Source: Verrucomicrobiota bacterium (GTDB lineage Bacteria > Verrucomicrobiota > Verrucomicrobiia > JADLBR01). Taken from it: DNA of 64,000 nt. A program made the position numbers and the translations under genes. Each line of letters starts with the position of its first letter. Within the stretch, counting starts at the first letter, position 1. Location of the stretch: positions 1-64,000 of the forward strand of contig JAKQKQ010000259.1 of NCBI GenBank assembly GCA_029560585.1, written 5' to 3'. Positions 156 to 16,055 of the stretch are shown piece by piece. The notes beneath the pieces are model-generated. The model was not told the origin of the DNA. It made no database searches and saw nothing but the letters and a program-made list of their open reading frames with translations.

Positions 156-184
156 TTGACACGGGACCCGGTGCTTGGCATAAA
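156..184 (+). promoter_or_regulatory. Putative sigma-70-type promoter for the first HTH-EIIA gene
   Basis: TTGACA at 156-161 and CATAAA at 179-184 are separated by 17 bp, a near-consensus arrangement. They lie about 50 bp upstream of the ATG at 233. The site sits right beside the IS end, so it may be an outward-reading promoter supplied by the element or created at the junction. No transcription data are available. Confidence 0.45.
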
Positions 185-232
185 TGTCCAGAAATATCCA
201 TTTCTATAGAGTTTTAGGATATTTTAGGCAGA

Positions 233-937
233 ATGAAGTTAACTGTCAGAGATGTGTCCGAAATGTTGGACGTTTCGGAAAAGACGGTATACCGGTGGTT
301 GACGGAGCGGAAACTGCCGGGCTATCGGATGAGCGGCCAGTATCGGTTCAGCCGCGCCGAAGTTCTGGAGTGGGCGACGGCCAACAAACTCAACGTGTCG
401 GTGGGTGCGCTGCAGGAGGCAGAGGAGCAGGGGCAGCCCCTGCCGACGCTCGCCGATGGTCTTCAGGTGGGGGGCATCTTTTATCGGCTCGGGGGTTCGG
501 ACAAGGAGTCCGCGCTCCGGAGCGTCGTGGAGGTCGTGCGGTTGCCGGATGAGGTGGATCGGGAGTTTCTGCTGCAGGTGCTTCTTGCGCGGGAGCAGTT
601 GGCCTCGACCGGCATTGGGGATGGCATCGCCATTCCGCACGCGCGCAATCCGATCGTGCTGCATTTGGAGAAGCCGTTGGTCGCGCTGTGTTTCCTGGAG
701 CGGGCCATCGATTTCGGCGCATTGGATGGTCGGCCGGTGCAGACTTTGTTTGCCGTGATCAGCCCGAGCGTGCGCGCGCATCTGCATCTGCTTTCGCGGG
801 TCTCGTTTGCGCTGCGCGATCCAGAATTCAAGGCGCTGCTGCTGGCGCAGGCGGGTCGCGAGGAATTGCTGGTGGCGATTCGGCGGATCAGCGCCAGCCA
901 GCCAAGGCCGCACGGGGTTCAAACTGCGGATGGATAG
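233..937 (+). CDS. HTH domain fused to PtsN-like EIIA domain (putative regulator of the Ehr-type operon)
   Basis: This 234-aa protein has two parts. Residues 1-50 are a small excisionase/MerR-like DNA-binding domain (LTVRDVSEMLDVSEKTVYRW, then GQYRFSRAEVLEW). Residues from about 78 to 225 match the fructose/nitrogen-type EIIA fold, with the phosphorylatable histidine at H136 in GIAIPHAR and a later S-x-x-x-R-A-H-L-H-L-L-x-R segment. EIIA-Ntr proteins normally take phosphate from NPr/HPr and act as regulators. The fusion suggests a DNA-binding protein controlled by a phosphorelay. No EIIB, EIIC, HPr or EI gene is nearby, so sugar transport is unlikely. It precedes the NuoL-like gene by 60 bp and is probably co-transcribed with it. 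Confidence 0.8.
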   Translation: MKLTVRDVSEMLDVSEKTVYRWLTERKLPGYRMSGQYRFSRAEVLEWATANKLNVSVGALQEAEEQGQPLPTLADGLQVGGIFYRLGGSDKESALRSVVEVVRLPDEVDREFLLQVLLAREQLASTGIGDGIAIPHARNPIVLHLEKPLVALCFLERAIDFGALDGRPVQTLFAVISPSVRAHLHLLSRVSFALRDPEFKALLLAQAGREELLVAIRRISASQPRPHGVQTADG

Positions 938-997
938 GTTCGCTCAAAGAAGATCTGGAGGGGCGAACTGGGCTGAGCTGGGAGAACCCATGGGGGT

Positions 998-2950
998 GTG
1001 TCCGTGAGCCCGGGCGCGGTGCTTCTCGTTGCTGCCTGCGCTGTCGCGCTCAGTCTGTTGGGCGCGGTCCGTGCGCCGCGCTGGTGGCTGGCGTCGTTGC
1101 TCGTGGGTTCATTTGCCGCGCTTATCGCGGGGGCGTGGGTGCTGGGCGCGGGGGTCGCCTGGGAGTGGCGGAGCGCATTTCGGATCGCCGGGGAGCCGTT
1201 GCACCTGCGGCTGGATGGCGTGAGCGCGCTATTTCTGGTCGCGGTCGCGGTGGTGGGCGGTGCCGGTGCCGCATATTCGAGGGAGTATTGGGGGGATCGG
1301 GCTCATCCCGTTTCGGCGGGGGCGGGCCGGTGGTGGTGGAGTGCGCTGCAGTTCTGCATGGGGCTGCTATTGCTGTGCTCCAACGGCCTCCATTTTCTCA
1401 TGGCATGGGAGGCGTTCGCCATCAGTGGCTATTTCCTCATCACCCTCGATCGGCAGAAGACCGAGGTCCGGTCGGCGGGCTGGCTCTATCTGGCGGCATC
1501 GCACGCGGGCACGCTGGGGCTGTTCGCGTTTTTTGCGTTGCTGGCCGCGCGCACGGGGACCTGGGACCTGGGACCGGTGCGCGATCAGGCGGGGTTGGCG
1601 CCGTTGTTCTGGCTGGCGCTGGTGGGCTTTGGCGTGAAGGCCGGCATGTTTCCGCTGCACATCTGGCTGCCGTCGGCGCACGCGAATGCGCCGAGCCACG
1701 TCTCCGCGATCCTCTCGGGGGTGGCGATCAAGATGGGCATTTATGGCATCGTGCGTTTCAGCGGTTGGCTGCCGTCGTCGGCGGGGACCGGGTGGGTCGT
1801 CGCTCTGTTGGGCGTGGTGAGCGCGGTGCTGGGCGTGGCGTTTGCGCTGGGGCAGCACGACATCAAGAGGCTCTTGGCCTATCACAGCGTCGAGAACATC
1901 GGGATCATCTTGATCGGGGTTGGGTTTGCGATGGTGGCGTCGGTGCACGGTCATCCGGCATGGGGGCCCCTGGCTCTGGCGGGGGGGCTCCTGCACGTGT
2001 GGAACCATGCGCTGTTCAAATCGCTGCTGTTCTTTGGCGCCGGGTCGGTGGTGCACGCGGTTGGCACGAGGGAGATGAGCCTGCTCGGCGGTTTGTGGCG
2101 GCGGATGCCGTGGACGGCGTCACTGTTCGCGTTGGGCGCGGTGGCGATTTCTGGGCTGCCGCCGCTGAATGGATTCGTGAGCGAGTGGCTCATCTATCTG
2201 GGATTATTCGATGCGGTCAACCAACCGGGTGCTGCGGTCTGGGCGGCAATACCCGCCATCGTGCTGCTGGCGATGACCGGTGCGCTGGCGCTGGCTTGTT
2301 TCGTGAAGGTCTGCGGCGTGGTATTTCTTGGGGCGCCACGGGCACAGTCGGCCAAAGGGGCGCACGAGTGCGGCCTTTGGATGCGCGGATCGATGGTCGT
2401 CCTGGCCGCGGGCTGCGTGGCGATAGGACTGGTACCCGTCGTTTTTTGGAGGGCGACACACTCGGCGGTGGCGGCATGGCAGGGGGCGTGGGGCGGGGAT
2501 CCGGCCCCGGAATCATTGGCGACGCTGGGCCTGATCCATCTGACGCTGGCCGCATCGGCGGTCGCGGGGGCGGTCTGGCTGTGGCGGCGGGCGCGGCGGG
2601 GTGGCTGTGTGCGCGGGCCGACCTGGGACTGTGGCTATGCGGCGCCGACGGCGCGGATGCAATACACGGCGGGTTCGTTCGCGGGCATCATCACGGAATG
2701 GTTTGCGTGGATCCTTCAGCCGCGGCGGCACGCGCATCGGCCCGAGGGTGTTTTTCCCCGGCATGCCTTTTTTGAAGAGCACACGCCGGAGACCGTCCTG
2801 GAGCGCGTGATCGAACCGGTCGGGCGGGGCGTGATGCTGGTCTCTGGACTGGCCCGGCGATTGCAGCACGGGAGCGTGCAAGCCTATGTGCTTTATCTGA
2901 TCGTGGGTCTGGCGGCCGTGGCGGCCATGGCGTTGGCTTGGTGCGGGTGA
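998..2950 (+). CDS. NuoL/HyfB-like ion-translocating membrane subunit, Ehr-type complex 1
   Basis: This 650-aa hydrophobic protein of the proton-conducting antiporter-like family starts at GTG 998; GTG 1004 is an alternative. The hallmark charged residues are present: E138 in the MAWEAFAISGYF helix and K214 in GVKAGMFPLHIWLP, followed by a second lysine helix (GVAIKMGIYGI). The WDCGYAAPTARMQYTAGSF segment and the long tail are typical of hydrogenase-4 component B or NuoL relatives. By family it should form a proton or sodium channel driven by the redox arm of the complex. It is separated from the other membrane subunits by a second HTH-EIIA gene, which is unusual. Confidence 0.88.
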   Translation: MSVSPGAVLLVAACAVALSLLGAVRAPRWWLASLLVGSFAALIAGAWVLGAGVAWEWRSAFRIAGEPLHLRLDGVSALFLVAVAVVGGAGAAYSREYWGDRAHPVSAGAGRWWWSALQFCMGLLLLCSNGLHFLMAWEAFAISGYFLITLDRQKTEVRSAGWLYLAASHAGTLGLFAFFALLAARTGTWDLGPVRDQAGLAPLFWLALVGFGVKAGMFPLHIWLPSAHANAPSHVSAILSGVAIKMGIYGIVRFSGWLPSSAGTGWVVALLGVVSAVLGVAFALGQHDIKRLLAYHSVENIGIILIGVGFAMVASVHGHPAWGPLALAGGLLHVWNHALFKSLLFFGAGSVVHAVGTREMSLLGGLWRRMPWTASLFALGAVAISGLPPLNGFVSEWLIYLGLFDAVNQPGAAVWAAIPAIVLLAMTGALALACFVKVCGVVFLGAPRAQSAKGAHECGLWMRGSMVVLAAGCVAIGLVPVVFWRATHSAVAAWQGAWGGDPAPESLATLGLIHLTLAASAVAGAVWLWRRARRGGCVRGPTWDCGYAAPTARMQYTAGSFAGIITEWFAWILQPRRHAHRPEGVFPRHAFFEEHTPETVLERVIEPVGRGVMLVSGLARRLQHGSVQAYVLYLIVGLAAVAAMALAWCG

Positions 2951-2995
2951 AGGGGAGCGAGGCCGGTGAATGGAATAGCGGATTACTGACGAATC

Positions 2996-3703
2996 ATGTA
3001 TTTAAATCTGGTTGAGATAGCCGAGTCGTTCGGTGTTGCAGAGAGGGTCGTCGAAGACTGGATACGCGACGAGGGCCTTCCGCATGTTCCGGATCGTGGA
3101 CGACTGTTATTTGACCGGGCGCGCGTGGTCCAGTGGGCGACCGAGCACGGGTTGGCGGCGCGGGCGGGATTCCTCGCCCCCGAAAACGCGGCGTTCAAGA
3201 CTGGTTTTGCGCTGGGGCCGATGTTGCGGGCCGGTGGGATCTGGCGCGATGTTCCCGCCGGGGGCGTGATCGGGGTTCTGGAACGGGTGATCGGCTCCCT
3301 GGCGGGAGTTCCCGGGCCCGTGCGCGCGCTGTTGGCGCAACGATTGAAGTCCGACGGCGGTGTCAATTGGGCGCCTGTGGGCCTGGGGTTCGCCCTGCCT
3401 CATTTCAGCACGCGGGTTACGCTGGGACCGGGCGGGGGCGTGGTCGCTCTGGTATTGTTGCGCGACGCATTGCCGGTGGCGGAGGCGCCGGCCGATCTCG
3501 TGCCGGTGAGGCGGCTTTTCTTTTTTGTTCCGCCTTCGCCGCGCGCGCATCTCGATACGCTGGGGCGGCTCAGTCGGGCGATCGTGAGGGGGCCTTTGCG
3601 CGACGCGGTGGAGAAGGGCGCGGCTGACGAGGAAGTTTTTCGGGCGCTGGATGCGGCCGACGCATCCGGCGGCACCGGGCAAGAAAGCGGGGATCCTTCG
3701 TGA
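2996..3703 (+). CDS. Second HTH-EIIA fusion protein inside the Ehr-type operon
   Basis: This 235-aa protein has the same architecture as the gene at 233-937: an N-terminal helix-turn-helix region (residues 1-52, LVEIAESFGVAERVVEDWIR) and a diverged EIIA-like domain. A histidine is kept at H136 in GFALPHFST, the same residue number as in the first copy. The domain retains the late P-S-P-R-A-H-L-D-T-L-G-R-L-S-R segment, but the rest has diverged strongly. The two are probably paralogues from duplication. Its position between the NuoL-like and NuoH-like genes, 45 bp and 75 bp from its neighbours, ties it to the complex. Whether it regulates transcription or enzyme activity cannot be told from sequence. 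Confidence 0.72.
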   Translation: MYLNLVEIAESFGVAERVVEDWIRDEGLPHVPDRGRLLFDRARVVQWATEHGLAARAGFLAPENAAFKTGFALGPMLRAGGIWRDVPAGGVIGVLERVIGSLAGVPGPVRALLAQRLKSDGGVNWAPVGLGFALPHFSTRVTLGPGGGVVALVLLRDALPVAEAPADLVPVRRLFFFVPPSPRAHLDTLGRLSRAIVRGPLRDAVEKGAADEEVFRALDAADASGGTGQESGDPS

Positions 3704-3778: not shown

Positions 3779-4687
3779 ATGATTGCGGTGCTTGACTTCG
3801 CTTCCCGGCTATTGGTGTGGCTTCTGGTAGCACCGCTGCTGCCCGGCATCATCAACAGGGTCAAGGCGTGGGTGGCGGGGCGGCAGGGGCCGCCGGTGCT
3901 GCAACTCTACTATGATCTGGCGCGCCTGTGGCGGAAGGGCGTCGTGCTGAGCACGCTCGCCTCGCCGGGTTTTGTGGCCGGGCCAGCCGTCGCGTGGCTG
4001 GCGGTGGTGGCGGCGGCGCTGCTAATGCCGCTGGGTTCGCTCGGCGGAACTCTGAGTTTTCGCGGCGACGTGATCCTGCTGGTCTACCTGCTGGCACTGG
4101 CGCGTTTCTGCACGGCCTGGGCGGCCCTGGAAACGGGATCGGCATTCGAGGGGATGGGCGCGGCGCGGGAAGTGAGCTACGCCGTACTCGCGGAGGCGTC
4201 GGTGATCACGGCGGTGCTGGTCTTGGGTGTGCAAAGCGGAACCGTGTCATTGGCCGCCATGTTGGGTCCCTCTGCCGGGACCGGTTCCGTGTTGTTGGCC
4301 GTTGGATTGTTCATGGTTCTGTTGGCCGAGAATTGCCGGGTGCCGTTCGACGATCCCAACACCCATCTGGAATTGACGATGATTCACGAGGTGATGGTGC
4401 TGGACCACAGCGGGCCGCCTTTGGCCGCGGTGCTCCATGGGGCCGCGATCAAGCTGATGCTGTTCTCCGTGCTGCTGGTTCAGGCTGTCTTGCCCCTGGG
4501 TGACATGCGCGCGGCAACGGCCTGGGCGGTGCTGGTCGCGGGCGTGCTGGCGGTGACCGTCGCGGTCGGCCTGGTGGAATCGCTGCTGGCGCGCTACGCG
4601 TTCCGCAGGGTGCCGTTGTTGCTCACGACCGGATTCCTGCTCTGCCTTTTCTCCTTGCTGGTGGCGTGGAAGGGGGGCTCCGCATGA
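3779..4687 (+). CDS. NuoH/HyfC-like membrane subunit, Ehr-type complex 1
   Basis: This 302-aa integral membrane protein belongs to the respiratory complex I subunit 1 family. The diagnostic cytoplasmic loop is present (AENCRVPFDDPNTHLELTMIHE), as is the early R-x-G-P-P-V-L-Q-x-Y-Y-D-L segment that contacts the redox arm. In this superfamily NuoH joins the redox module to the ion-pumping module. ATG 3779 was chosen because an overlapping ATG at 3774 is out of frame. The stop overlaps the next start in an ATGA, indicating translational coupling. Confidence 0.88.
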   Translation: MIAVLDFASRLLVWLLVAPLLPGIINRVKAWVAGRQGPPVLQLYYDLARLWRKGVVLSTLASPGFVAGPAVAWLAVVAAALLMPLGSLGGTLSFRGDVILLVYLLALARFCTAWAALETGSAFEGMGAAREVSYAVLAEASVITAVLVLGVQSGTVSLAAMLGPSAGTGSVLLAVGLFMVLLAENCRVPFDDPNTHLELTMIHEVMVLDHSGPPLAAVLHGAAIKLMLFSVLLVQAVLPLGDMRAATAWAVLVAGVLAVTVAVGLVESLLARYAFRRVPLLLTTGFLLCLFSLLVAWKGGSA

Positions 4688-5325
4688 CAGGGCACCTGAA
4701 TGTGCTGATCGGGCTGGCCATGGGCCTGAATCTCGTCGCACTGGGCAGCAGCCGACTGCCGTCGCTGATCCGCCTGGCGGCGATGCAGGGCGTGGTGCTG
4801 GGCATCATGCCGCTGGTCATGGGGCACGCTCCGGGTGCGATGGTAATGCTGGTGGCGGTGGCCACTGTGGCCATCAAAGGCTTTGTGATCCCGTGGCTGT
4901 TGCGCCGCGCGATGCGCGCCGCCAACATCGATCGCGACCTGTTTCCTCTCATTGGATTCCTGCAATCGTTGCTGCTCGGCGCGGCCGGGATGATCGGGGC
5001 GGTGGTGCTGGCGCGATGGCTGCCCCTCCTGCCGGAACACCACGAGTCGCTGCTGGTGGCCGGCGCGCTGGCGTCGGTTTTCACCGGCCTGTTGCTGCTC
5101 ATCGGGCGGTCCAAGGCCATTTCGCAGGTCTGCGGCTATCTCATTTTGGAAAATGGCATTTATCTTTTTGGTCTACTGCTGATCCGGTCGACCCCGCTCC
5201 TGGTGGAGGGGGGCATCCTGCTGGATCTTACCGTGGCGGTTTTCGTGACGGGCATCATCGTGGACCGGATCCAACGGGCGTTCGACTCGCTCGACACCCG
5301 AAAACTGACTGTGCTCCGAGAATGA
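4684..5325 (+). CDS. HyfE-like membrane subunit, Ehr-type complex 1
   Basis: This 213-aa, almost wholly hydrophobic protein resembles hydrogenase-4 component E. The C-terminal half (LILENGIYLFGLLL, then VEGGILLDLTVAVFVTGII) corresponds to a NuoK-like unit with its membrane-buried glutamate in LENG. The N-terminal half adds further helices. ATG 4684 overlaps the preceding stop (ATGA) and is preferred over an in-frame upstream start at 4666, which would lie inside the previous gene. Its own stop overlaps the next start in the same way. Confidence 0.82.
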   Translation: MTGHLNVLIGLAMGLNLVALGSSRLPSLIRLAAMQGVVLGIMPLVMGHAPGAMVMLVAVATVAIKGFVIPWLLRRAMRAANIDRDLFPLIGFLQSLLLGAAGMIGAVVLARWLPLLPEHHESLLVAGALASVFTGLLLLIGRSKAISQVCGYLILENGIYLFGLLLIRSTPLLVEGGILLDLTVAVFVTGIIVDRIQRAFDSLDTRKLTVLRE

Positions 5326-6764
5326 TCGAATCGCTCTTGATTCTGGTGCCGATGCTGGCGGCCGCGGCGGCGGCGGTCTGGCCGGACAATCGCACGCGCC
5401 AATGGTTTTTGCCGGCGGCGGGGCTGGCGCACGCGGTGTTGGCGGTCGGGCTGCTGGTGCATCCGCCGGCGGCGCCGATGCACGCGTGGATCGGTTTCGA
5501 TCCGCTGGCCCGGGCGATGTTGCCGGCGGTGTCGCTGCTATTCCTGGGGTGCGCGGCCTATGGCGTGCCCTATCTGCGGCTGCGCGCGGAACGATCGAAT
5601 CGCATGTTCGTGGCGGGTTTTCTTGCGGCGCTGGGCCTGATGAGTGCGGCGCACATGGCGAGGCATCTCGGCGTGCTATGGATCGCGACGGAGGCGCTGA
5701 CCCTGGCCTCCGTGCCCCTGCTGCACTTCAACAACACCCCGCGCGCGTTCGAGGCAACGTGGAAATACCTCCTCGTTGGCGGCACGGGCATCGCGCTTTC
5801 GCTGCTGGGATCGTTTTGCCTGGGCTACGCGTCGTTGCACGGGGGCGGCGCGGGCGACCTGACTTTCGCCGCCCTGATGGGGCAGGGCGGCGGTCTTTCT
5901 CGGCCGTGGGTCCTGATCGCATGGGTGCTGCTGCTGGTGGGCTATGGGACGAAGATGGGTTTGGCGCCGATGCACACTTGGAAACCCGATGCCTACGGTG
6001 AGGCGCCGGGGATCGTGGGCGCGATGCTGGCGGGAGGGGTCACTACGGTGGCGTTCACGGCGGTGCTGCGCGTCCGCGCGGTGGTGGATGCCGCCGGCGC
6101 GGGCGTCGTGGCCAATAGGACGCTGCTGGCCATCGGCCTATTCTCGACCCTGGTGGCCGCGCTGTTCCTTCTGTCGACCCGTGATTTCAAACGGATGCTG
6201 GCGTATTCGAGCGTCGAGCACATGGGCATCCTGAGCCTGGGTACGGCGCTGGGTGGCGCGGGCATGTGGGCGGCGTTCTTTCACGTCTGGAACAACAGCA
6301 TGACCAAGGGAGCGCTCTTCCTGAGCGCCGGGAACATCCGTCGCGCGGCGGGGGCGCGAACCATCGATGATGTCGGGGGCATGTCCGTCATCACGCCGCG
6401 GTCGGCGGCGCTGTTTGTGGCGGGGCTGTTTGCGGTGACGGCGTGTCCGCCCTTTGGGCCATTCTTCAGCGAGTTGCTCATCGTGAAGACGGCATTTGGC
6501 ACGGGGCACGGCGGGGCGGCGGGTCTATTTCTGGTCTGTCTGTTGCTGGCGTTTTTCGGTCTGACGCGGGTTGTGTTCGCCATTGTCCATGGTCGGCCGC
6601 GCCATGCCGCGCGGGCTGGTGGACGGCGATTCAAGGAAACGGTGGACGTGCTTGTGCCGCCCCTGGCGATGCTGATTTTTGCGCTGTGGCTTGGGGTGGC
6701 GACGCCGGACGTGCTGCGGGAGGCCTGGTCGGCGGCGGTCAGACAACTGTGTGCGACGCCATGA
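5322..6764 (+). CDS. NuoM/HyfF-like ion-translocating membrane subunit, Ehr-type complex 1
   Basis: This 480-aa antiporter-like subunit starts at ATG 5322, overlapping the previous stop. The longer open frame that begins at 4893 is inside the upstream gene. E124 lies in LWIATEALTLASVPLL and K211 in YGTKMGLAPMHTWKPDAYGEAPG; the TWKPDAYGEAPG form is typical of hydrogenase-4 component F rather than complex I NuoM. A further lysine-bearing helix (FKRMLAYSSVEHMG) and N-N-S-M-T-K-G-A complete the channel signature. It should provide a second proton or sodium path, and is coupled to the large-subunit gene by an ATGA overlap. Confidence 0.88.
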   Translation: MIESLLILVPMLAAAAAAVWPDNRTRQWFLPAAGLAHAVLAVGLLVHPPAAPMHAWIGFDPLARAMLPAVSLLFLGCAAYGVPYLRLRAERSNRMFVAGFLAALGLMSAAHMARHLGVLWIATEALTLASVPLLHFNNTPRAFEATWKYLLVGGTGIALSLLGSFCLGYASLHGGGAGDLTFAALMGQGGGLSRPWVLIAWVLLLVGYGTKMGLAPMHTWKPDAYGEAPGIVGAMLAGGVTTVAFTAVLRVRAVVDAAGAGVVANRTLLAIGLFSTLVAALFLLSTRDFKRMLAYSSVEHMGILSLGTALGGAGMWAAFFHVWNNSMTKGALFLSAGNIRRAAGARTIDDVGGMSVITPRSAALFVAGLFAVTACPPFGPFFSELLIVKTAFGTGHGGAAGLFLVCLLLAFFGLTRVVFAIVHGRPRHAARAGGRRFKETVDVLVPPLAMLIFALWLGVATPDVLREAWSAAVRQLCATP

Positions 6765-8242
6765 GCGACCGAACCCCATTTGCCCTGTTGACGAACGGCA
6801 CGGCGCTTCCATGGGCCGATGTGCCCGAGTCGCCGGTGATCGAGTTTGTGCGCGCCGTTGGTTCCGAACTGGACCGCGGCGGGCGGTTGAGCAGTCTTTT
6901 CGGCGTGGCGGAGGGCGATGCCGTGCGGCTGGTTGCGGTGATAGCCTTCGACGCCGACAGCGTGTTGTCCGTGGGGCGAAGCGAGCCGTTCTCGGCCCGC
7001 TATCCGGCGCTGTCCGCGAGGCATCCGCAGGCGCATCTGTTCGAACGCGAGGTATGGGAGCAGCACGGGGTTGTTCCCGAGGGGCACCCTTGGCTGAAGC
7101 CGGTGCGATTGGACCACGGAAGCGGTCCCGCGGTGATGGATTTCTTCCGCGTGGATGGGCGCGAGATTCACGAGGTGGCCGTCGGCCCGGTGCACGCGGG
7201 CATTATCGAGCCCGGGCACTTTCGTTTTCAATGCGCCGGGGAAGAGGTGGTCCATCTTGAGATCGCGCTGGGCTACCAGCACCGGGGCATCGAGGAAGCG
7301 ATGGCCGGTGGTCCCGGGCGCGCGACGGTCTATCAGATGGAGACCGTGGCGGGCGATTCGACGATTGCCCATGCCACCGCGTATGCCGTGGCCCTCGAGG
7401 CACTGGGGGGGACGGAGGCGCCGTTGCGTGCCCAATGGCTGCGGGCGATCGCCCTCGAACTGGAACGGCTGGCCAACCACACGGGCGACCTCGGGGCCTT
7501 GGCTGGAGACGTGGCATTCCTGCCGACGTCCTCGGCGTGCGGCAAGATCCGCGGCGATTTCCTCAACCTGACGGCGATCCTCTGCGGGAATAGGTTCGGG
7601 CGGGGGCTGGTCCGGCCCGGCGGCTGTGCGATGGATCTCGAGCCGGAGCGCCTGGGCCGGTTGCGCGAACGCCTGGGGGTGGCGTTGGCCGACGTGGATC
7701 AGGCGGCGGCGTGGCTGTGGGACGCCGCGTCGGTGCGGGCGCGGTTTGAAGGCACCGGGCGCCTGGACGGCAGGCAGGCTGCCGAAATCGGCCTTGTCGG
7801 ACCACCGGCGCGCGCGTGCGGCCTGGTGCGGGACGGGCGGTTCGATCATCCCATCGGCTGGCATCGTTTCGCGCAGGTCCCCGTCTCGGTTTGGCCGGAC
7901 GGGGACGTGTTTGCGCGCGCGCGCGTGCGGTGGTTAGAGACACAGCGATCGGGCGAATTCCTGAGGGAACAGTTGGAGGCCGGGCCGGAGGGCGACGCCC
8001 GGGGCGGATTGGCCGCTGCGGCAGCCGACACCCTCGCGGTGGCATTGGTCGAAGGGTGGCGTGGCGAGGTCTGTCACGTGGCGCTCACGGATGGGGCGGG
8101 GCGGCTGCGGCGCTACAAGATCACCGATCCGTCATTCCACAACTGGACGGGTTTGGCCCTCGCGCTGCGGGGGCAGGCCATATCGGATTTTCCGCTCTGC
8201 AATAAGAGTTTCAACCTGAGCTATTGTGGCTTTGACCTATAG
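6761..8242 (+). CDS. NuoC-NuoD fused large subunit lacking NiFe ligands, Ehr-type complex 1
   Basis: This 493-aa protein starts at the ATGA overlap (6761). Residues 1-125 are a 30-kDa NuoC-like domain; the rest is a hydrogenase-large-subunit/NuoD-like domain (VGPVHAGIIEPGHF at about 141-154, NKSFNLSY near the C-terminus). In true NiFe enzymes the metal is held by an N-terminal CxxC and a C-terminal DPCxxC. Here those positions read AGDS (197-200) and DPSFHNW (456-462), so all four cysteines are missing. Known Ehr-type complexes show the same loss. The protein therefore probably forms a redox or quinone-like pocket rather than a hydrogen-active centre. Its substrate is unknown. Confidence 0.85.
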   Translation: MSDRTPFALLTNGTALPWADVPESPVIEFVRAVGSELDRGGRLSSLFGVAEGDAVRLVAVIAFDADSVLSVGRSEPFSARYPALSARHPQAHLFEREVWEQHGVVPEGHPWLKPVRLDHGSGPAVMDFFRVDGREIHEVAVGPVHAGIIEPGHFRFQCAGEEVVHLEIALGYQHRGIEEAMAGGPGRATVYQMETVAGDSTIAHATAYAVALEALGGTEAPLRAQWLRAIALELERLANHTGDLGALAGDVAFLPTSSACGKIRGDFLNLTAILCGNRFGRGLVRPGGCAMDLEPERLGRLRERLGVALADVDQAAAWLWDAASVRARFEGTGRLDGRQAAEIGLVGPPARACGLVRDGRFDHPIGWHRFAQVPVSVWPDGDVFARARVRWLETQRSGEFLREQLEAGPEGDARGGLAAAAADTLAVALVEGWRGEVCHVALTDGAGRLRRYKITDPSFHNWTGLALALRGQAISDFPLCNKSFNLSYCGFDL

Positions 8243-8259: not shown

Positions 8260-9057
8260 ATGTTCATCCACGACACAATCCTAAACCGGCTGAAGCGCGG
8301 ATGCGAGACGATGGACTATCCGGCGGGCGACGCGCCCGCGCTGCCCGACCGCCATGGCGGGGGACTGCGGGTGGAGTCCGCGCGATGCGCCGCCGACTGC
8401 TCCGCCTGCGTGAGCGTCTGTCCCACCGAGGCCATCACGCGGGCCTCGGGGCAAGCCGTTGCGCTGGATCTGGGCCGATGCCTATTTTGCGCCGAATGCG
8501 TCAGGGCGTGTCCGGACCGGGCGATCACGCAGACCGGAGATCATCGCCTCGCGGCGCGCCTCCGCGAAGACCTTGTGCTCGGCGGGACCGGGAAGGAGCA
8601 GGTGCGTCTGGCGGCGGCGCTGAATGAGAGGTTACGCGGGCTTTTCGGGCGCTCGCTAAAGCTCAGGCAGGTCAGCGCCGGCGGCTGCAATGCCTGCGAG
8701 GCCGACACCAACGTGCTCGGCACCATTGGTTGGGATCTCGGACGTTTCGGCATCCAGTTTGTCGCTTCGCCGCGGCATGCCGATGGGTTGCTCATCACGG
8801 GACCTGTCTCGAAGAACATGGCGTTGGCGCTCCAGAAGACTTATGCCGCGGTGCCTGATCCAAAGATCGTGATAGCGGTGGGGGCCTGTGCCATCGCGGG
8901 TGGGCCATTCGTGGGTCACTCGCAGGTGAGCGACGGGGCGGGCGCCCTGGTGCCCGTGGACCTCTTCGTCCCCGGTTGTCCGCCGCATCCGCTGACCATC
9001 CTCGACGGACTGTTGAGGCTCTTGGACCGGTTGGGTGGTCCTTCGGGAAAGGGCTAG
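8260..9057 (+). CDS. Ferredoxin-NuoB fused small subunit, Ehr-type complex 1
   Basis: This 265-aa protein joins two [4Fe-4S] ferredoxin sites to a NuoB/HyfI-like domain. Site 1 uses C43, C47, C50 and C54 (one extra residue between the first two); site 2 uses C74, C77, C80 and C84 with the usual spacing. The NuoB-like domain has C143 and C146 (GGCNACE), C210 (GACA) and C240 (PGCPPHP), the ligands for the cluster next to the large subunit. The fusion merges what are usually separate NuoI-like and NuoB-like subunits, giving a plausible electron path from soluble ferredoxin. Its stop codon lies in the first arm of a palindrome at 9056-9089. Confidence 0.86.
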   Translation: MFIHDTILNRLKRGCETMDYPAGDAPALPDRHGGGLRVESARCAADCSACVSVCPTEAITRASGQAVALDLGRCLFCAECVRACPDRAITQTGDHRLAARLREDLVLGGTGKEQVRLAAALNERLRGLFGRSLKLRQVSAGGCNACEADTNVLGTIGWDLGRFGIQFVASPRHADGLLITGPVSKNMALALQKTYAAVPDPKIVIAVGACAIAGGPFVGHSQVSDGAGALVPVDLFVPGCPPHPLTILDGLLRLLDRLGGPSGKG

Positions 9058-9089
9058 GAATCTGTCGGGACTTAGGCCGACAGATTCCT
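9056..9089. terminator. Perfect 13-bp palindrome at the end of Ehr-type operon 1
   Basis: AGGAATCTGTCGG (9056-9068) and CCGACAGATTCCT (9077-9089) are perfect inverse complements around an 8-nt loop. No U-run follows, so it is either a weak terminator or a copy of a dispersed palindromic element. The CTGTCGG core recurs at 9232-9259. Confidence 0.55.
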
Positions 9090-9231
9090 CTGGCAAAACC
9101 GCCTGTTTGTTTGAAGGTGAAAGAGTTAGACAAAATGACACGTCTCGATGTCAGGGTGGAGATCGGGCGATTTCGCTTGTCCCGCATGTATCGCAACCAA
9201 TTAGGTGCCGGGCGATTTTGCTTACTAGGAG

Positions 9232-9259
9232 CCTGTCGGACTTTCCAAAGTCCGACAGG
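9232..9259. repeat. Perfect 13-bp palindrome upstream of Ehr-type operon 2
   Basis: CCTGTCGGACTTT (9232-9244) pairs exactly with AAAGTCCGACAGG (9247-9259) around a 2-nt centre. It lies 18 bp before the ATG at 9277 and would form a strong hairpin just upstream of the ribosome-binding purine run (about 9264-9271). A diverged relative with the same AAAGTCCG...GGTTGC right arm is at 34871-34906, suggesting a dispersed element. Confidence 0.6.
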
Positions 9260-9276
9260 TTGCTAGGGGGGGTGCG

Positions 9277-11322
9277 ATGGATTACCCTGCCATTTTGCTG
9301 ATCGTCGCGGCCTGCGCGTACGTTGCGGGGATGGCGGGGGCGCTGCTGCTGCGGCGCGTCGGGCGGCTGGCCTTGAGTGTCGGCTTCGGCCTGGCGGCAG
9401 TGGGCGGGGCATGCGGATTCCTTTCCGGGGTTACGTCCCTGGCGACTGGCCAGGCGGCGGCCCGTGGGGCGGTGACGTTTTGGTCGGGGCCGGCACCCAA
9501 CCTGCGGCTTGTTATTCAGGCAGATCCACTGTCGTGTTTCTTTGTGACGATCGTCTCGATGCTGGGAGCCGCGATCGCAATCTACTCGCTGGGCTATTCC
9601 GGGGCCTACCTCGGGCGCAAGAGCGTCGGTCTGCTCGCGGCCCTCTACAACGCCTTGCTGTTGGCCACGACGTTGACCTTTGTCGCGGGGAATGTGTGGG
9701 TATTCCTTATCGCCTGGGAGATGATGGCGCTGCTGGCCTACGGTCTGGTGACGTTCGAGCACGAGGACCGGGAGACGAGAGGTGCCGCGGTTTTCTATTT
9801 CATCATGTCACACATAGACGCGGTGTGCGTCATGCTTGGCTTTCTCGTGCTGTTTCAGGCCGCGGGTGATTTCAGCTTTGATGGCCTGCGCGGCGTCGGG
9901 GCAAAGCTATCGTCGGGCCAGCGGGATACGGCGTTCTTGCTGTTCGTGGTTGGGTTCGGGATCAAGGCGGGCCTCGTGCCGTTGCACGTCTGGCTGCCGG
10001 TGGCGCACCCGGTGGCGCCCAGCAACGTCTCGGCCCTGATGTCGGGCGTGCTGATCAAGACCGGCATCTATGGCATCGCGCGGGTCTGTTTCGAGTTTCT
10101 TGGGGGGCCGCCGCTGTGGTGGGGTGCCCTGCTGTTGGCGCTGGGCACCGTGTCGGCCGTGCTGGGTGTGCTCTACGCGCTGATGGAGCACGACCTCAAA
10201 CGCCTCCTCGCCTACCACAGCATCGAGAACATCGGGATCATCGTGATGGGGCTCGGGGCGTCACTCATGTTCGTGTCCACGGGGCATCCCGTCCTGGCGG
10301 CGCTCGCGCTGGCGGCGGCGCTCTACCACACGATCAATCACGCGTCATTCAAGGGGCTGTTGTTTCTCGGGGCAGGCTCGGTGCTTCACGCGACGCACAC
10401 CCGCAACATGGAGGAGATGGGTGGGCTGGTGAAGCGGATGCCCCAGACCGCGATGCTGTTCTTGCTCGGGGCCGTGGCCATCTCTGCGCTGCCGCCGTTG
10501 AATGGTTTTGTGAGCGAGTGGCTCACCTACCAGGCGCTGCTGCAGGGATTCGGTTCGACCGACAGCCTGCTCCGCCTGATGTTTCCGGTGGGCGGTGCGA
10601 TGCTGGCCCTGACGGGCGCGCTGGCGGCGGCATGTTTTGTGAAGGCGTTTGGTATTTCCTTCCTGGCCCAACCCCGGAGCCAGGCTGCGGAGCGGGCCCG
10701 GGAGGTTCCGGCCAGCATGCGGTTGGGGATGGCGCTGCTGGCGATCGCGTGCCTGTTCCTCGGGTTGTTCCCGACCGTTTTTCTCGGATGGCTCGGGCCC
10801 GTGATGAACCAGTTGACGGGCGAGGCCCTCGCGGGCCGGCTCTCGTTGGCCGGTGGCTGGGTGCTGGCCGCTCCCGGCGCGAACGCCGGAAGCGTCTCCA
10901 CCGCGGCCATGACGCTGTTCGGCTTGAGTTTCCTGCTGGTGCCATTGTTCTTGCGGCGGATGCTGGGGCGCCGCGCCAAGACGGTGCGGGGACCGACGTG
11001 GGATTGCGGGTTGCAGGGCCTGACGCCGCGCATGGAGTATTCGGCCACGGGCTTTTCGAAGCCGCTCCGGATGATTTTCAAGGCGCTGTTTCGGCCGCAC
11101 CGGGAGGTCCAGCGCGAATATGAATTCTCACCGTATTTTGCGCGCTCGTTGCGATTCGAGAGCCACGTCGAGGAGGTTTTCGAGGAACGCATCTATCGGC
11201 CGACGCGTTTTTGGATCCTGAGGGTTTCGCGCCGGGTTCGGGCCCTGCAGCAGGGGAGCTTGCAGGTGTACCTCCTCTACATTTTCCTGACCCTGTTGGG
11301 GCTGTTGCTCTGGGCCGTATGA
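9277..11322 (+). CDS. NuoL/HyfB-like ion-translocating membrane subunit, Ehr-type complex 2
   Basis: This 681-aa antiporter-like subunit is homologous to the one at 998-2950. E148 lies in LIAWEMMALLAYGLVT and K230 in GIKAGLVPLHVWLPVAHPVAPS; a further lysine lies in GVLIKTGIYGIA. The C-terminal segment (GPTWDCGLQGLTPRMEYSATGFS) again matches hydrogenase-4 component B. The start at ATG 9277 is supported by a strong purine run (AGGGGGGG) just upstream. It opens the second operon and its stop overlaps the next start. Unlike in operon 1, it is directly followed by the NuoH-like gene with no EIIA-type gene between. Confidence 0.88.
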   Translation: MDYPAILLIVAACAYVAGMAGALLLRRVGRLALSVGFGLAAVGGACGFLSGVTSLATGQAAARGAVTFWSGPAPNLRLVIQADPLSCFFVTIVSMLGAAIAIYSLGYSGAYLGRKSVGLLAALYNALLLATTLTFVAGNVWVFLIAWEMMALLAYGLVTFEHEDRETRGAAVFYFIMSHIDAVCVMLGFLVLFQAAGDFSFDGLRGVGAKLSSGQRDTAFLLFVVGFGIKAGLVPLHVWLPVAHPVAPSNVSALMSGVLIKTGIYGIARVCFEFLGGPPLWWGALLLALGTVSAVLGVLYALMEHDLKRLLAYHSIENIGIIVMGLGASLMFVSTGHPVLAALALAAALYHTINHASFKGLLFLGAGSVLHATHTRNMEEMGGLVKRMPQTAMLFLLGAVAISALPPLNGFVSEWLTYQALLQGFGSTDSLLRLMFPVGGAMLALTGALAAACFVKAFGISFLAQPRSQAAERAREVPASMRLGMALLAIACLFLGLFPTVFLGWLGPVMNQLTGEALAGRLSLAGGWVLAAPGANAGSVSTAAMTLFGLSFLLVPLFLRRMLGRRAKTVRGPTWDCGLQGLTPRMEYSATGFSKPLRMIFKALFRPHREVQREYEFSPYFARSLRFESHVEEVFEERIYRPTRFWILRVSRRVRALQQGSLQVYLLYIFLTLLGLLLWAV

Positions 11323-12263
11323 ACATCGACATCACATCGCTGATCGCGCAGACCGCACTGGTTCTCCTGTTGTCGCCGTTGCTCAGCGGCCTGATCGCGA
11401 GCCTGAAGGCGAAGTTGCAGAACCGCCGGGGCCCGCGGGTGTGGCAGCCATTTTTCGATCTGATCAAGTTCTTTCGCAAGGACATGGTCATTTCGGAGCA
11501 CGCGTCGGGGGTCTTCGCGGCTGTGCCCCACGTCGTGTTTGCGACTGCGCTGATGGCGGGGCTGATGGTGCCATTGGCCTGGGTGCCGGCGCCGCTGCAG
11601 CTTTTTGGCGGGGCGTTGGCGCTCGTGGGCCTGCTGGCGCTGGGGCGGTTCTTTTTGGCGCTTGGCGGATTGGATCCGGGGAGCGCATTCGGGGGCATGG
11701 GCAGCAGCCGCGAGATGACGATTTCCGCCATCGCCGAACCGGCCATGATGCTGGCCATTTTCACGGCGGCCATCGCGGGCGGTTCGACCAATCTGAGCCA
11801 GATCGTGATGGCGGGCGATGGCCACGCCGGGCGTTTCTTGGAGCCCGCGCACACGCTCGCGTTCTCCGCCATGTTCATCGTCCTGCTGGCCGAGACGGGC
11901 CGCGTGCCGGTGGACAATCCGGCCACCCACCTCGAGCTGACAATGATCCACGAGGCGATGATCCTCGAGTACTCGGGCCGGTATTTGGCGATGCTGGAGT
12001 GGGCAGCCTCCATGAAGCAGCTGGTCCTGTTTGGCCTGCTGGCGAACCTGTTTTTCCCATTCGGGCTGGCGCCGGGGATGCTTCCCGCGGCGGTGGCGCA
12101 GGGCATGGGCTGGCTCGCCATCAAACTAGTGGGGCTTGCGGTGGCGGTGGTCCTGGTGGAATTCACGAATGCGAAGCTGCGCCTGTTCAGGGTGCCCGAC
12201 CTGTTGGGCGCGGCGTTTGTCCTGGCGACGCTGGCCCTGGTCTCCTTGTTTCTGTTCCGATGA
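11319..12263 (+). CDS. NuoH/HyfC-like membrane subunit, Ehr-type complex 2
   Basis: This 314-aa NuoH-family protein starts at the ATGA overlap with the preceding gene. It has the early NRRGPRVWQPFFDLIKFF segment and the loop LAETGRVPVDNPATHLELTMIHEA. Both match complex I subunit 1 and HyfC/EchB. It is a clear paralogue of the protein at 3779-4687 and serves as the hinge between the redox arm and the membrane pump. Its stop overlaps the next start. Confidence 0.88.
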   Translation: MNIDITSLIAQTALVLLLSPLLSGLIASLKAKLQNRRGPRVWQPFFDLIKFFRKDMVISEHASGVFAAVPHVVFATALMAGLMVPLAWVPAPLQLFGGALALVGLLALGRFFLALGGLDPGSAFGGMGSSREMTISAIAEPAMMLAIFTAAIAGGSTNLSQIVMAGDGHAGRFLEPAHTLAFSAMFIVLLAETGRVPVDNPATHLELTMIHEAMILEYSGRYLAMLEWAASMKQLVLFGLLANLFFPFGLAPGMLPAAVAQGMGWLAIKLVGLAVAVVLVEFTNAKLRLFRVPDLLGAAFVLATLALVSLFLFR

Positions 12264-12934
12264 ACTCATCCCCTCAGGTTGTTGATTTCGCCGTTGGGCT
12301 GATTCCGCTACTGGCGGCGATCATGCTGGTGCTCCAGCTCTTGCTTCTGGCGCAGCGAATGCTGGTCACCGTCATCCGGGTGTTCGCCCTGCAGTCGCTG
12401 CTGCTGGCGGTGATCGCGGGGGTGGTCGGATACACGTGCCATGCGTGGCACGTGACGCTCGTCGCGGTGTTGACGGTCATGGGCAAGGTGCTGTTCCTGC
12501 CGTGGCTGCTGGAGCGGCTCATCCGCCGGGTCCGGATCGAGCAGGAGATCAGCCCGTGGCTGAACATGCCGGCCTCGCTGTTCCTGTGCGGCGGTCTAAC
12601 ACTTCTGGGCTATCTGGTGGCGCGGCCATTCGCTTCGGCGGAACGGGTGGGCGGCAATACGCTGGCCGTGGCGGTGGCGCTTGTGCTGACGGGGTTCTTC
12701 CTGCTGATCAATCGCCGCAAAGCCCTCACGCAGGTGCTGGCGCTGCTGACGATGGAGAACGGCGTGATGCTGGCGGCCATCGCGTTCAGCAGCCACGGGA
12801 TGCCGCTGGTGGTGGAGCTGGGGATCTTTTTCGACGTGGTGATCGCGGTCATGGTGCTCGGATTGCTGGTATTTCGGATCCGCGAGACGTTCGCCTCGAT
12901 GGACACGAGCCGGTTGAACGAATTGAAGGGATGA
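12260..12934 (+). CDS. HyfE-like membrane subunit, Ehr-type complex 2
   Basis: This 224-aa hydrophobic protein is the counterpart of the gene at 4684-5325, with the NuoK-like C-terminal unit (LTMENGVMLAAIAF, then VELGIFFDVVIAVMVLGLLVFRI) and the buried glutamate in MENG. ATG 12260 overlaps the upstream stop and gives a length normal for the family; longer upstream reading would lie inside the NuoH-like gene. Confidence 0.82.
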   Translation: MNSSPQVVDFAVGLIPLLAAIMLVLQLLLLAQRMLVTVIRVFALQSLLLAVIAGVVGYTCHAWHVTLVAVLTVMGKVLFLPWLLERLIRRVRIEQEISPWLNMPASLFLCGGLTLLGYLVARPFASAERVGGNTLAVAVALVLTGFFLLINRRKALTQVLALLTMENGVMLAAIAFSSHGMPLVVELGIFFDVVIAVMVLGLLVFRIRETFASMDTSRLNELKG

Positions 12935-12938
12935 CGCC

Positions 12939-14420
12939 ATGTCGCTGATAGTCCTTCTCTGTGTTCCGCTGGTGGCCGGGCTTCTGAGCCTGGTGGTGCG
13001 GCACGTTCGCGCGCTGGAGGCCATCAACCTCTTGGCTTTCGGGACCGTGACATTTCTGGCGGTGCGCCTCGTGGGGGCGGTCTTGGTTGCGCCGGGTGGG
13101 GTGGTGCTGGGCTGGGGGGAGTTTCTCCGGGCGGACGCGCTGAGCGCCTGGATGGCGCTGGTCGTGGGGGTGGTTTCCCTGGGGTCCTCATTCTATGCGG
13201 TGGGATACTTCCGGCGCGAATTGGTCGAGGGCCAACTGACGGTGGGGAGATGCCGGGAGTTCTACCGGCTCACGCATTTCTTTGCGACCGCGATGCTGCT
13301 GGTGGTTCTGGTCAACAACCTCGGCGTGATGTGGGTGGCGGTGGAGGGCACCGCGCTGTCCAGCGTGCTGCTGGTGGCTCTATACAACCGGAAGACGTCG
13401 CTGGAGGCCGCCTGGAAATACATAATGCTCGGGGGTGTGGGGTTGGTCCTGGCCCTGTTTGGGACCGTGCTGACATATGCCGCGGCGCTCGGCCACGCGG
13501 GCGGCGAGGCGCTGCCGAGTTTCGATTGGTCCAGCATGCGCGGCATGGCGTCGCAGCTCGACCCGAAACTGATGCGCCTCGCGTTCATATTCCTTTTCGT
13601 CGGGTACGGGACGAAGGCGGGGCTAGCGCCGATGCACAGCTGGTTGCCCGACGCGCACAGCGAGGCGCCTTCACCGACGAGCGCGATGCTGTCGGGTGTG
13701 TCCCTGAAGGTTGCGGTATACGCGCTTTTGCGCGGACACATGCTGGCGACGGCGTGCTTGCACTCGGACTTCAGTCGGCATCTGCTGCTGGGGTTCGGTC
13801 TGCTGTCGATGATTATCGCCGGCCCGTTCGTGCTGACGCAGAAGAACCTCAAGCGGATGCTGGCCTATTCGAGCCTCGAGCATGTCGGGCTCGTGTGCGT
13901 GGGTTTTGGCCTGAACACGCCCCTGACCGTGTTCGGTGCATTGCTCCACATGGGTTACCACGCGTTGGCCAAGCCGGTCTTGTTCTTCGCCGCAGGCAAC
14001 ATTCACCAGAGGTATCATGCCCTGGATTTCCGGCGTCTTGGCGGGGGTTTAGGCCGCACCATGCCGATGACGGCGCTGTTGCTCGCGGTGGCGGCGGTGG
14101 CGATCAGCGGTCTGCCCCCGTTCGGATTATTCTATAGCGAACTGACGATTTTCGCGGGTGCGTTTGTCTCGCATCAGGCGTGGGCTGGCGCGGTGGCGCT
14201 GCTCGCGCTGCTGGTGGTGTTCTGCGGCATGCTGAAGCGATTTGCGCATCTGCTCTTGGGGCGGCCTGGCGCCGAGATCTCGCGGGAGAGCTGGGCGACC
14301 GGCAACGTTCTGGCCATGGTGCTGCCACTGGTCGTGCTGCTGGTGCTGAGCATCTGGCTGCCGGCGCCCGCCCGGCAACTCTTGGAGCGGGCCGCTGGAA
14401 TCATCGGGGGAGCACCATGA
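12939..14420 (+). CDS. NuoM/HyfF-like ion-translocating membrane subunit, Ehr-type complex 2
   Basis: This 493-aa antiporter-like subunit has E136 in VMWVAVEGTALSSVLLV and K226 in YGTKAGLAPMHSWLPDAHSEAP. The S-E-A-P-S-P-T-S-A-M-L-S-G stretch and FVLTQKNLKRMLAYSSLEHVG are typical of hydrogenase-4 component F. It starts 4 bp after the previous stop, with GAAGGGA as a ribosome-binding site, and its stop overlaps the large-subunit start. Confidence 0.88.
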   Translation: MSLIVLLCVPLVAGLLSLVVRHVRALEAINLLAFGTVTFLAVRLVGAVLVAPGGVVLGWGEFLRADALSAWMALVVGVVSLGSSFYAVGYFRRELVEGQLTVGRCREFYRLTHFFATAMLLVVLVNNLGVMWVAVEGTALSSVLLVALYNRKTSLEAAWKYIMLGGVGLVLALFGTVLTYAAALGHAGGEALPSFDWSSMRGMASQLDPKLMRLAFIFLFVGYGTKAGLAPMHSWLPDAHSEAPSPTSAMLSGVSLKVAVYALLRGHMLATACLHSDFSRHLLLGFGLLSMIIAGPFVLTQKNLKRMLAYSSLEHVGLVCVGFGLNTPLTVFGALLHMGYHALAKPVLFFAAGNIHQRYHALDFRRLGGGLGRTMPMTALLLAVAAVAISGLPPFGLFYSELTIFAGAFVSHQAWAGAVALLALLVVFCGMLKRFAHLLLGRPGAEISRESWATGNVLAMVLPLVVLLVLSIWLPAPARQLLERAAGIIGGAP

Positions 14421-16042
14421 GTTCATCCGGATCCAAATCCTTCTCGGCCGCGCTGAAGCCCGGGCTGCGGCGCGCGATGGAAGCGCTGGCGAAGCAGTTT
14501 CGCGGCCGGATCACGCGTGTCGATGCGCCCCGGCCGGACGAAGTTTATCTGGACGCCGATCCAGTGATGGCGGGCGCCCTGTGCTCCACCCTCTACAAGA
14601 AACATGGGGCGCGGCTCGCCGGGGTATTCGCCGAGGATGCGCGAACGTCAGAGCGGGCCTTCCTCGTTTACCAGATTTACGCCCTCGATGCCGTCGGGGG
14701 ATTCGTGGTGGTGAGGCTGGCGCTGCCGCCGGAGGATCCGGCACTGGCATCGCTGACCAGCGCCGTGCCGGCGGTCAACTGGCAGGAGCGCGAGATCCAG
14801 GATTGGTTCGGCATTCGGCTGCTGGGCCATTCCAACCCCCGCCGGTGCGCGATGCACGACGACTGGCCCCCGGTTCACCCGATGCGAAAGGATTTTGATC
14901 TGCGGGCGACGTTGCCGCCATTTCGGGGCGAGAGGCACAAGTTCCGGGAGGTCGAGGGCGAGGGCGTATTCCAGGTGCCCGTCGGGCCGGTGCATGCGGG
15001 CATCATCGAGCCGGGGCACTTCCTGTTCAGCGTCGCGGGCGAACCCGTGCTCTATCTGCAGTTGCGCCTGTTCTACGTGCACAAGGGCACCGAGAAGCTG
15101 TTCGAGAGCCTGCTGATCCCGCATGGGGTGAGGTTGGCCGAGAGCATATCGGGCGATTCGGGCTTTGCGCACGCCACGGCATTCTGCCATGCGGTGGAGC
15201 GCGCGGCGGGCGTCGAGATACCGGCGCGGGCGCGCGCGCTGCGGACGATCTGCCTGGAGCTGGAGCGGCTATACAATCACGTGGCCGATATCGGCGCCAT
15301 CTGCACGGACGTGGCGTTCGTGACCGCCAACATGCACGCGATGCGCCTGAAGGAGCGCGTGCTGCGGACGAACGAGCACCTCACCGGCAATCGCCTGCTC
15401 CGTGGCATGGCGTGCCTCGGCGGGGTGCGGTTCGATTTCGACGCGGGGCGGATCGGTGCGCTGTCGGGACTGCTGGACGAATTGGGGAACGAGTTCAACG
15501 ACCTGGTCGAAATCATACGCTCGCATTCCGGCACCCGGGACAGACTCGAAACCACCGGGGTGCTGAGTCCCAAGGTGGCGCGCGACCTGGGGATCGTCGG
15601 CGTCGCGGGGAGGGCCTCGGGAATCGACCGGGACATGCGGCGTGATTTCCCCCACGACTTTTATGACGAGGTGCAGTTTACGGTGCCGGTGTTTTCCGAG
15701 GGCGACGTGCAGAGGCGGCTCGCGGTGCGGCGCGAGGAGGTCTATCAGGCGATCTCCATCATCCGCCAGACGTTGAACAAGCTGCCGGATGGGCCCTTGC
15801 GCACCGAGGTCAGGGAGGTGCCGCCGGACCGGGTGGCGCTCGGCTTTGTCGAGGGTTGGCGCGGCGAGATCTTTCACTGGGTTCACACTGCTCCCGGCAA
15901 TCGGCTGGCCCGCTGCAAGGTGAAAGACCCATCGCTTCAAAACTGGCCGGCCCTGAGCGAGGCGATCCTCGGGAACATCATCCCAGATTTTCCCGTCGTG
16001 AATAAGAGCTTCAATCTATCCTATTCGGGAACGGACCGGTGA
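14417..16042 (+). CDS. NuoC-NuoD fused large subunit lacking NiFe ligands, Ehr-type complex 2
   Basis: This 541-aa protein starts at the ATGA overlap. A NuoC-like domain spans roughly residues 20-175, with the family stretch WQEREIQDWFGIRLLGH at 122-138. The NuoD/hydrogenase-like domain begins at VGPVHAGIIEPGHF. As in copy 1, the metal motifs are gone: SGDS replaces the first CxxC (245-248) and DPSLQNW replaces DPCxxC (504-510). Loss of all four ligands in both copies, with otherwise well-kept sequence, argues for a stable non-hydrogenase function. The conserved NKSFNLSYSGTD tail is retained. Confidence 0.85.
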   Translation: MSSSGSKSFSAALKPGLRRAMEALAKQFRGRITRVDAPRPDEVYLDADPVMAGALCSTLYKKHGARLAGVFAEDARTSERAFLVYQIYALDAVGGFVVVRLALPPEDPALASLTSAVPAVNWQEREIQDWFGIRLLGHSNPRRCAMHDDWPPVHPMRKDFDLRATLPPFRGERHKFREVEGEGVFQVPVGPVHAGIIEPGHFLFSVAGEPVLYLQLRLFYVHKGTEKLFESLLIPHGVRLAESISGDSGFAHATAFCHAVERAAGVEIPARARALRTICLELERLYNHVADIGAICTDVAFVTANMHAMRLKERVLRTNEHLTGNRLLRGMACLGGVRFDFDAGRIGALSGLLDELGNEFNDLVEIIRSHSGTRDRLETTGVLSPKVARDLGIVGVAGRASGIDRDMRRDFPHDFYDEVQFTVPVFSEGDVQRRLAVRREEVYQAISIIRQTLNKLPDGPLRTEVREVPPDRVALGFVEGWRGEIFHWVHTAPGNRLARCKVKDPSLQNWPALSEAILGNIIPDFPVVNKSFNLSYSGTDR

Positions 16043-16055
16043 CCGTTGGCGACCT

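Follow-up and report, generated by a model that had tools for sequence, protein, structure and literature searches.

Direct control of transcription by the phosphotransferase system (PTS) is known from factors of the LicR, MtlR, CelR and AtxA type, which carry PRD and EIIA-like modules and in which PTS phosphorylation, also on the EIIA-type module, sets the activity. Here we describe two proteins, E1 and E2, that join a helix-turn-helix (HTH) domain to an enzyme IIA (EIIA) domain and are encoded in an operon for an Ehr complex of a Verrucomicrobiota bacterium (assembly GCA_029560585.1). The stretch of DNA analysed (the window) comprises the 64 kb at the start of contig JAKQKQ010000259.1, and the whole genome is 7.06 Mb. 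In three reports, Ehr complexes are candidates for charge translocation, and their physiological role is described as unknown (PMC6349859, PMC7894505, PMC10284858). We think it probable that E1 is a dedicated autoregulator of the ehr genes, likely a repressor, with DNA binding set by PTS phosphorylation of H136. E2 may be accessory to the pump.

E1 and its linkage to ehr genes

E1 is an HTH-EIIA protein. Residues 3-51 match Pfam HTH_17 (4e-15) and residues 81-216 match PTS_EIIA_2 (1.7e-23), both above cut-off, with HTH scores of 56.2 bits against a cut-off of 27 (PF12728) and 46.5 against 28.8 (TIGR01764). The PtsN equivalog cut-offs are not reached (63.3 versus 138.7 bits for TIGR01419 and 57 versus 221 bits for NF008145), and E1 is therefore not classed as PtsN itself. 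A Pfam scan gave no PRD match in E1 or E2 and no EIIB match in E1. The predicted model of E1 (mean pLDDT 71.5) has PtsN as its best PDB match, with a target TM of ~0.7, and the active-site histidine of PtsN aligns with H136 of both E1 and E2. H136, R138 and H183 are invariant in 81/81 E1 proteins, the G-x-G...PH motif around the phosphoacceptor histidine is invariant across dozens of divergent members, and the HTH domain is also well conserved (W22 and W47 in 80/81, R38 in 71/81).

The gene order in the window is E1, hyfB, E2, hyfC, hyfE, hyfF, hyfG, hyfI, and a second complete Ehr-type operon follows (Table 1). The CxxC Ni-Fe ligand motifs are absent from both large subunits in the window, as judged by alignment, and from 48 linked large subunits elsewhere; these complexes are therefore Ehr rather than hydrogenases, and an identity as group-4 [NiFe]-hydrogenases is ruled out.

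E1 is genetically tied to ehr. We surveyed its 80 closest relatives (44-70% identity) in a one-genome-per-species collection, a sample that describes the E1 subfamily and not all HTH-EIIA proteins. Seventy have a hyfB-type gene downstream within 2.6 kb on the same strand, one is divergent, five lie at contig ends and four are unlinked. They span about 20 phyla, and the groups named are Verrucomicrobiota, Planctomycetota, Lentisphaerae, Kiritimatiellales, Desulfobacterota/'Deltaproteobacteria', Desulfuromonadales, Acidobacteriota, Myxococcota, Gemmatimonadota, Spirochaetota, Omnitrophota, Elusimicrobiota, Fibrobacterota, Latescibacterota, Zixibacteria, Eisenbacteria, Fermentibacteria, Hydrogenedentes, Lindowbacteria and Auribacterota. 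Related genomes of the class, whose E1 proteins are 49-82% identical, all place E1 directly upstream of an ehr operon. Two isolates, Geobacter argillaceus (L118) and Geobacter sp. AOG1 (L123), encode E1 relatives, and in Geobacter-type loci E1 is divergent from the main ehr cluster, a typical layout for a regulator. Chance or an annotation artefact can be ruled out, as the pairing keeps its position in dozens of genomes.

A scan of 388 genomes of the same phylum agrees with this survey: a large-subunit gene lies 5.0-8.5 kb downstream on the same strand for 29/44 strong E1 matches, and an HTH-EIIA gene lies upstream of 33/47 best-scoring large-subunit genes, both counts being lower bounds because the contigs are draft. 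The correlation between E1 distances and large-subunit distances is only moderate (Mantel r 0.39, higher than in any of 2000 permutations). Inspection by eye of 15 loci for a dedicated electron donor found no recurring gene downstream of hyfI, and E1 is therefore the sole regular companion of the pump genes. In two related genomes a plain EIIA gene immediately precedes the E1 gene of the ehr operon (L040:8451-8897, L041:8355-8753).

A conserved direct repeat at the ehr promoter

In about 40% of the loci with E1, a conserved direct repeat, TGTCC-N5-TGTCC, is present in the ehr promoter. We refer to the repeat in the window as the putative operator; no other match of its strength there follows a promoter-like box ahead of an operon. 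The spacing from TTGACA to its ATGTCC is 22 bp. In many other loci TTGAC or TTGACA recurs ~21-25 bp before the repeat, which therefore overlaps the expected -10/start region. A sister genome has an 8/10 match at the same -48 position. Among 63 E1 upstream regions the pattern is exact in 13, against 0.0 in shuffled sequences, and reaches at least 9/10 in 23, from different phyla, against a shuffled mean of 0.3. The enrichment is specific to the 10-bp period, no other spacing from 2 to 9 being comparable; GGACA half-sites are often present in the spacer, and the distance from the beginning of the repeat to the start codon is nearly always 32-63 bp, with 49 bp the commonest value.

Held-out linked loci match at 9/10 or better in 5/23 cases, compared with 0/32 for the reversed pattern. 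An exact scan of the 388 genomes gave 25 matches. Four lie no more than 40 bp ahead of an E1 gene and on the right strand, and two of these four are new sequences. The putative operator also accompanies E1 before the other Ehr type (L057, 9/10; G039, 10/10). Among the loci tested, no site of comparable strength was found before operons with E2 only, before E1-like genes that stand alone or before a more remote group of HTH-EIIA genes, and the E1-type operator is absent from the E1-less ehr operons looked at. One nominally unlinked E1 gene (L165) has the putative operator but lies ~7.4 kb from a contig end. It is likely that E1 binds the TGTCC repeat.

E2, a diverged paralogue

E2 falls below the Pfam cut-off for both families (HTH_17, 2.5e-5; PTS_EIIA_2, 7.6e-4), and its HTH scores are likewise below cut-off (24.9 bits for PF12728, 17.7 bits for TIGR01764). 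A profile of five E2 orthologues matches PtsN structures (1.9e-5) and HTH-type terminase chains, and the E2 and E1 profiles align end to end (hhalign probability 99.8%, E 1.8e-29) with H136 on H136; E2 is therefore a diverged paralogue of E1. H136 and H185 are invariant in the five E2 proteins. In a tree, E2 and the Ehr-linked E1 proteins form one group, in which a few stand-alone or Mrp-linked members are nested, with other HTH-EIIA proteins outside and several deep supports low. E2 orthologues lie between antiporter-type genes, or between those and hyfC, in L036, L053, L054, L055, L063 and L152, and one heads the operon in L153; E2 is also present in genomes where no E1-type protein was found. 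The L153 locus has a further peculiarity, in that hyfF and hyfG of its type-1 operon are separated by an entire type-2 ehr operon (L153:3854-19897), suggesting joint use of the two pumps.

A preliminary description of this DNA had proposed two HTH-EIIA fusions, both with a histidine at residue 136 and one interrupting the membrane-subunit genes, and all of this holds: E1 clears both Pfam cut-offs, E2 is recognised through profile alignment, and E2 sits between hyfB and hyfC of a complete Ehr operon. The EIIA fold that it expected is predicted for E1, and the E2 model (pLDDT 57.6) is too poor to judge. The wide absence of linkage in related genomes that it had allowed for is not seen, 70/80 of the closest E1 relatives being directly upstream of hyfB/ehr. 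It named two regions in which DNA binding might be checked, of which 150-232 holds the conserved putative operator and 9100-9276 is without one, having two palindromes instead. E2 is not evidently a second DNA-bound regulator, since no E1-type operator was seen before its gene and its domains have diverged. Overall, the earlier interpretation is borne out in part and is now much stronger.

The position of E2 bears on a different reading, in which the EIIA domains of E1 and E2 would bind an Ehr subunit and gate electron or ion flow, the HTH domain being autoregulatory only or vestigial. A model for this exists in enterobacteria, where unphosphorylated PtsN controls TrkA and KdpD. Such contact with the pump would fit the placement of the E2 gene, which is flanked by membrane-subunit genes here and at six further loci and heads the operon in L153, its occurrence in genomes without a detected E1-type protein or operator, and its HTH domain, which is less typical than that of E1; passages of a report on control of K+ transport by PTS-Ntr through KdpDE (PMC9239096) count in the same direction. 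We nonetheless regard this reading as unlikely, because a strongly conserved E1 HTH (W22, W47 and R38) and a promoter-overlapping putative operator would be needless for a pure protein-protein effector, and because the divergent E1 gene of the Geobacter-type loci is laid out as a regulator.

Phosphorelay partners and a proposed mechanism

The genes for HPr, HPr kinase and enzyme I (EI) form one cluster in the genome, and that for a GAF-EI lies elsewhere. HPr has both its phosphorylation motifs, the one with His and the one with Ser. A plain PtsN-like EIIA gene, separate from E1 and E2, adjoins an NAD-kinase-like gene. A genome search for the PTS permease family PF02378 (PTS_EIIC) gave no match, other permease families not being searched. 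With EI and HPr partners encoded, a phosphate route to E1 would be available. The nitrogen-PTS-type relay suggested earlier is borne out as far as EI, HPr, HPr kinase and GAF-EI are present, and the 'nitrogen PTS' label is too narrow, because the only HPr found is encoded together with HPr kinase and an EI of the ordinary kind, away from the GAF-EI. Given these partners and the invariance of H136, it is moderately likely that H136 is phosphorylated by HPr and that this alters DNA binding.

It is also conceivable that the EIIA fold is reused as a phosphorylation-independent sensor of a small ligand or partner, with H136 structural or ligand-binding and the PTS uninvolved. E2 has lost much of its EIIA sequence signal, and both proteins stay under the curated cut-offs of all PtsN/FruA models, as such a sensor might predict; yet the phosphoacceptor histidine, H183 and the G-x-G...PH motif are invariant in E1, as expected for phosphotransfer, and EI and HPr are encoded in the genome, so that we consider the sensor quite improbable.

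For E1 as an autoregulator, we propose that the N-terminal MerR/excisionase-type HTH binds TGTCC-N5-TGTCC over the -10/start region of its own operon promoter and, most likely, represses the ehr operon; repression is moderately likely because the repeat overlaps the -10/+1 positions. The EIIA domain would take phosphate on H136 from P~HPr, supplied either by EI/HPr gated by HPr kinase or by GAF-EI, and phosphoenolpyruvate (PEP)/pyruvate and the carbon/energy state would thereby decide production of the Ehr ion pump. E2 probably acts downstream of transcription, perhaps by docking of its EIIA domain to either the pump or E1; that E2 modulates either of these is speculation.

Several observations weigh against this proposal. 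The sigma70 -10 in the window is weak and an automatic scan did not call the promoter, because the -10 is without the final T that the scan requires. The TGTCC pattern was picked by eye and then tested on loci fetched afterwards; it is recognisable in no more than about 40% of E1 loci, with variants (TGACAT-N4-TGACAT) in some lineages and nothing clear in others. For more distant large subunits (600-700 bits) in the 388 genomes an HTH-EIIA gene is upstream in just 3/35, and some E1-like proteins, in Kiritimatiellota/Lentisphaerae-type genomes, are solitary or beside Mrp genes. A MerR-like protein could activate instead of repress. The by-eye origin of the motif, its absence from many loci and the moderate Mantel correlation could be taken to mean that the repeat is a site of another factor or a promoter feature, with E1 acting elsewhere and the neighbourhood reflecting joint transfer only, which is very unlikely given that the motif accompanies E1 from one Ehr type to the other, was not found ahead of the examined operons with E2 only or the solitary E1-like genes examined, and is supported by the held-out loci.

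We hold it possible, rather than probable, that the proposal extends further, with a PTS-responsive HTH-EIIA factor and its own operator as a conserved Ehr regulator in about 20 phyla, PEP-dependent phosphorylation directly setting pump production, and E2 coupling the relay to the assembled pump. Two loci outside the ehr operons hint that the HTH-EIIA pair is used more widely in ion transport: at L143:1353-6441 such a gene immediately precedes genes that look like an Mrp Na+/H+ antiporter operon, and at L146:4441-8146 one is divergent from genes for an EIIA-CBS protein and a CitMHS/ArsB-family transporter.

Other features of the window

Table 1. Coordinates of the E1-ehr locus and of the second Ehr-type operon in the window.
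Feature	Coordinates	Strand	Basis or remark
TTGACA, probable -35 of the E1-ehr promoter	156-161	+	read by eye
CATAAA, probable -10	179-184	+	17-bp spacing from -35
Putative operator TGTCCagaaaTATCCA (TGTCCAGAAATATCCA)	185-200	+	direct repeat, 10-bp period; starts 48 bp before E1 start codon
E1 (HTH_17 and PtsN-like EIIA fusion)	233-937	+	234 aa; Pfam, profile and predicted-fold matches
E1 H136 codon CAC	638-640	+	
hyfB/ehrA-type antiporter-like membrane subunit, set 1	998-2950	+	profile matches
E2 (diverged HTH-EIIA paralogue, among membrane-subunit genes)	2996-3703	+	235 aa; profile comparisons and orthologue positions
E2 H136 codon CAT	3401-3403	+	
hyfC (NuoH-like), set 1	3779-4687	+	profile matches
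hyfE (NuoK-like), set 1	4666-5325	+	profile matches
hyfF antiporter-like subunit, set 1	5322-6764	+	profile matches
hyfG/ehrL (NuoCD-like large subunit without Ni-Fe cysteines), set 1	6761-8242	+	profile matches, alignment; start codon inferred
hyfI/ehrS (2[4Fe-4S] and NuoB-like small subunit), set 1	8260-9057	+	profile matches
Second complete Ehr-type operon	9277-16934	+	profile matches
hyfB, second operon	9277-11322		
hyfC, second operon	11316-12263		
hyfE, second operon	12266-12934		
hyfF, second operon	12939-14420		
hyfG, second operon	~14408-16042		
hyfI, second operon	16056-16934		

The gap between the two ehr operons contains two palindromes, of the CTGTCGGGACTTAGGCCGACAG type and CCTGTCGGACTTTCCAAAGTCCGACAGG, at 9058-9089 and 9229-9264; the exact 26-mer core of the second has only two occurrences in the genome. 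At the end of the second operon there is a MerR-looking open reading frame of 206 aa (16947-17567), for which Pfam gave no match at 1e-3. Short AAAAGGGGACATT repeats are present at the contig start (87-125), upstream of the E1 promoter.

Comparison with known systems

The window operons share the HyfB/C/E/F/G/I set, with a large subunit without Ni-Fe ligands, with the Ehr complexes of Geobacter (GSU0739-45), Margulisbacteria and comammox Nitrospira (PMC7894505, PMC6349859, PMC10284858). None of the three papers, when their text was searched, mentioned a regulator of the PTS or EIIA kind, and no EIIA-Ehr link was found in titles, abstracts and passages of the openly licensed literature, which is weak evidence of novelty. 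The linkage and conservation described above suggest a widespread, apparently undescribed switch tying the Ehr pump to the PEP (carbon/energy) state. A conserved PTS-linked regulator would be a strong clue to Ehr function, pointing to a pump that is wanted according to a PEP/pyruvate- and energy-dependent decision, and with it the reach of direct transcriptional control by the PTS would extend past sugar uptake to an ion pump driven by redox reactions, beyond the well-studied bacteria. The hypothesis is directly testable, as the putative operator, phosphosite and target operon are named and the E1-ehr pair is present in the isolate G. argillaceus.

E1 resembles PtsN (E. coli 1a6j, Burkholderia 3urr), with an EIIA profile match of 7e-22 as well as the top structural match, the same GIAIPH phosphoacceptor histidine and a second histidine. 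PtsN, however, lacks a DNA-binding domain and exerts its effects through contacts with other proteins, whereas E1 and E2 have an N-terminal HTH. In the PVC superphylum, the Chlamydia protein PtsN_2 (CT291) is annotated as 'PTS IIA protein + HTH' and is likened to E1 by this reported domain pair only; we know of no described link between it and Ehr genes, and to our knowledge its function is uncharacterised. Compared with regulators of the LicR, MtlR, CelR and AtxA type, E1 has a single excisionase/MerR-type HTH of ~50 aa and one EIIA domain, with no PRD and no EIIB match, and its target would be an ion pump rather than a sugar operon. We place E1, as a putative member, with the PTS-controlled transcription factors, among which its target would be of a new type and its phylogenetic breadth unusual.

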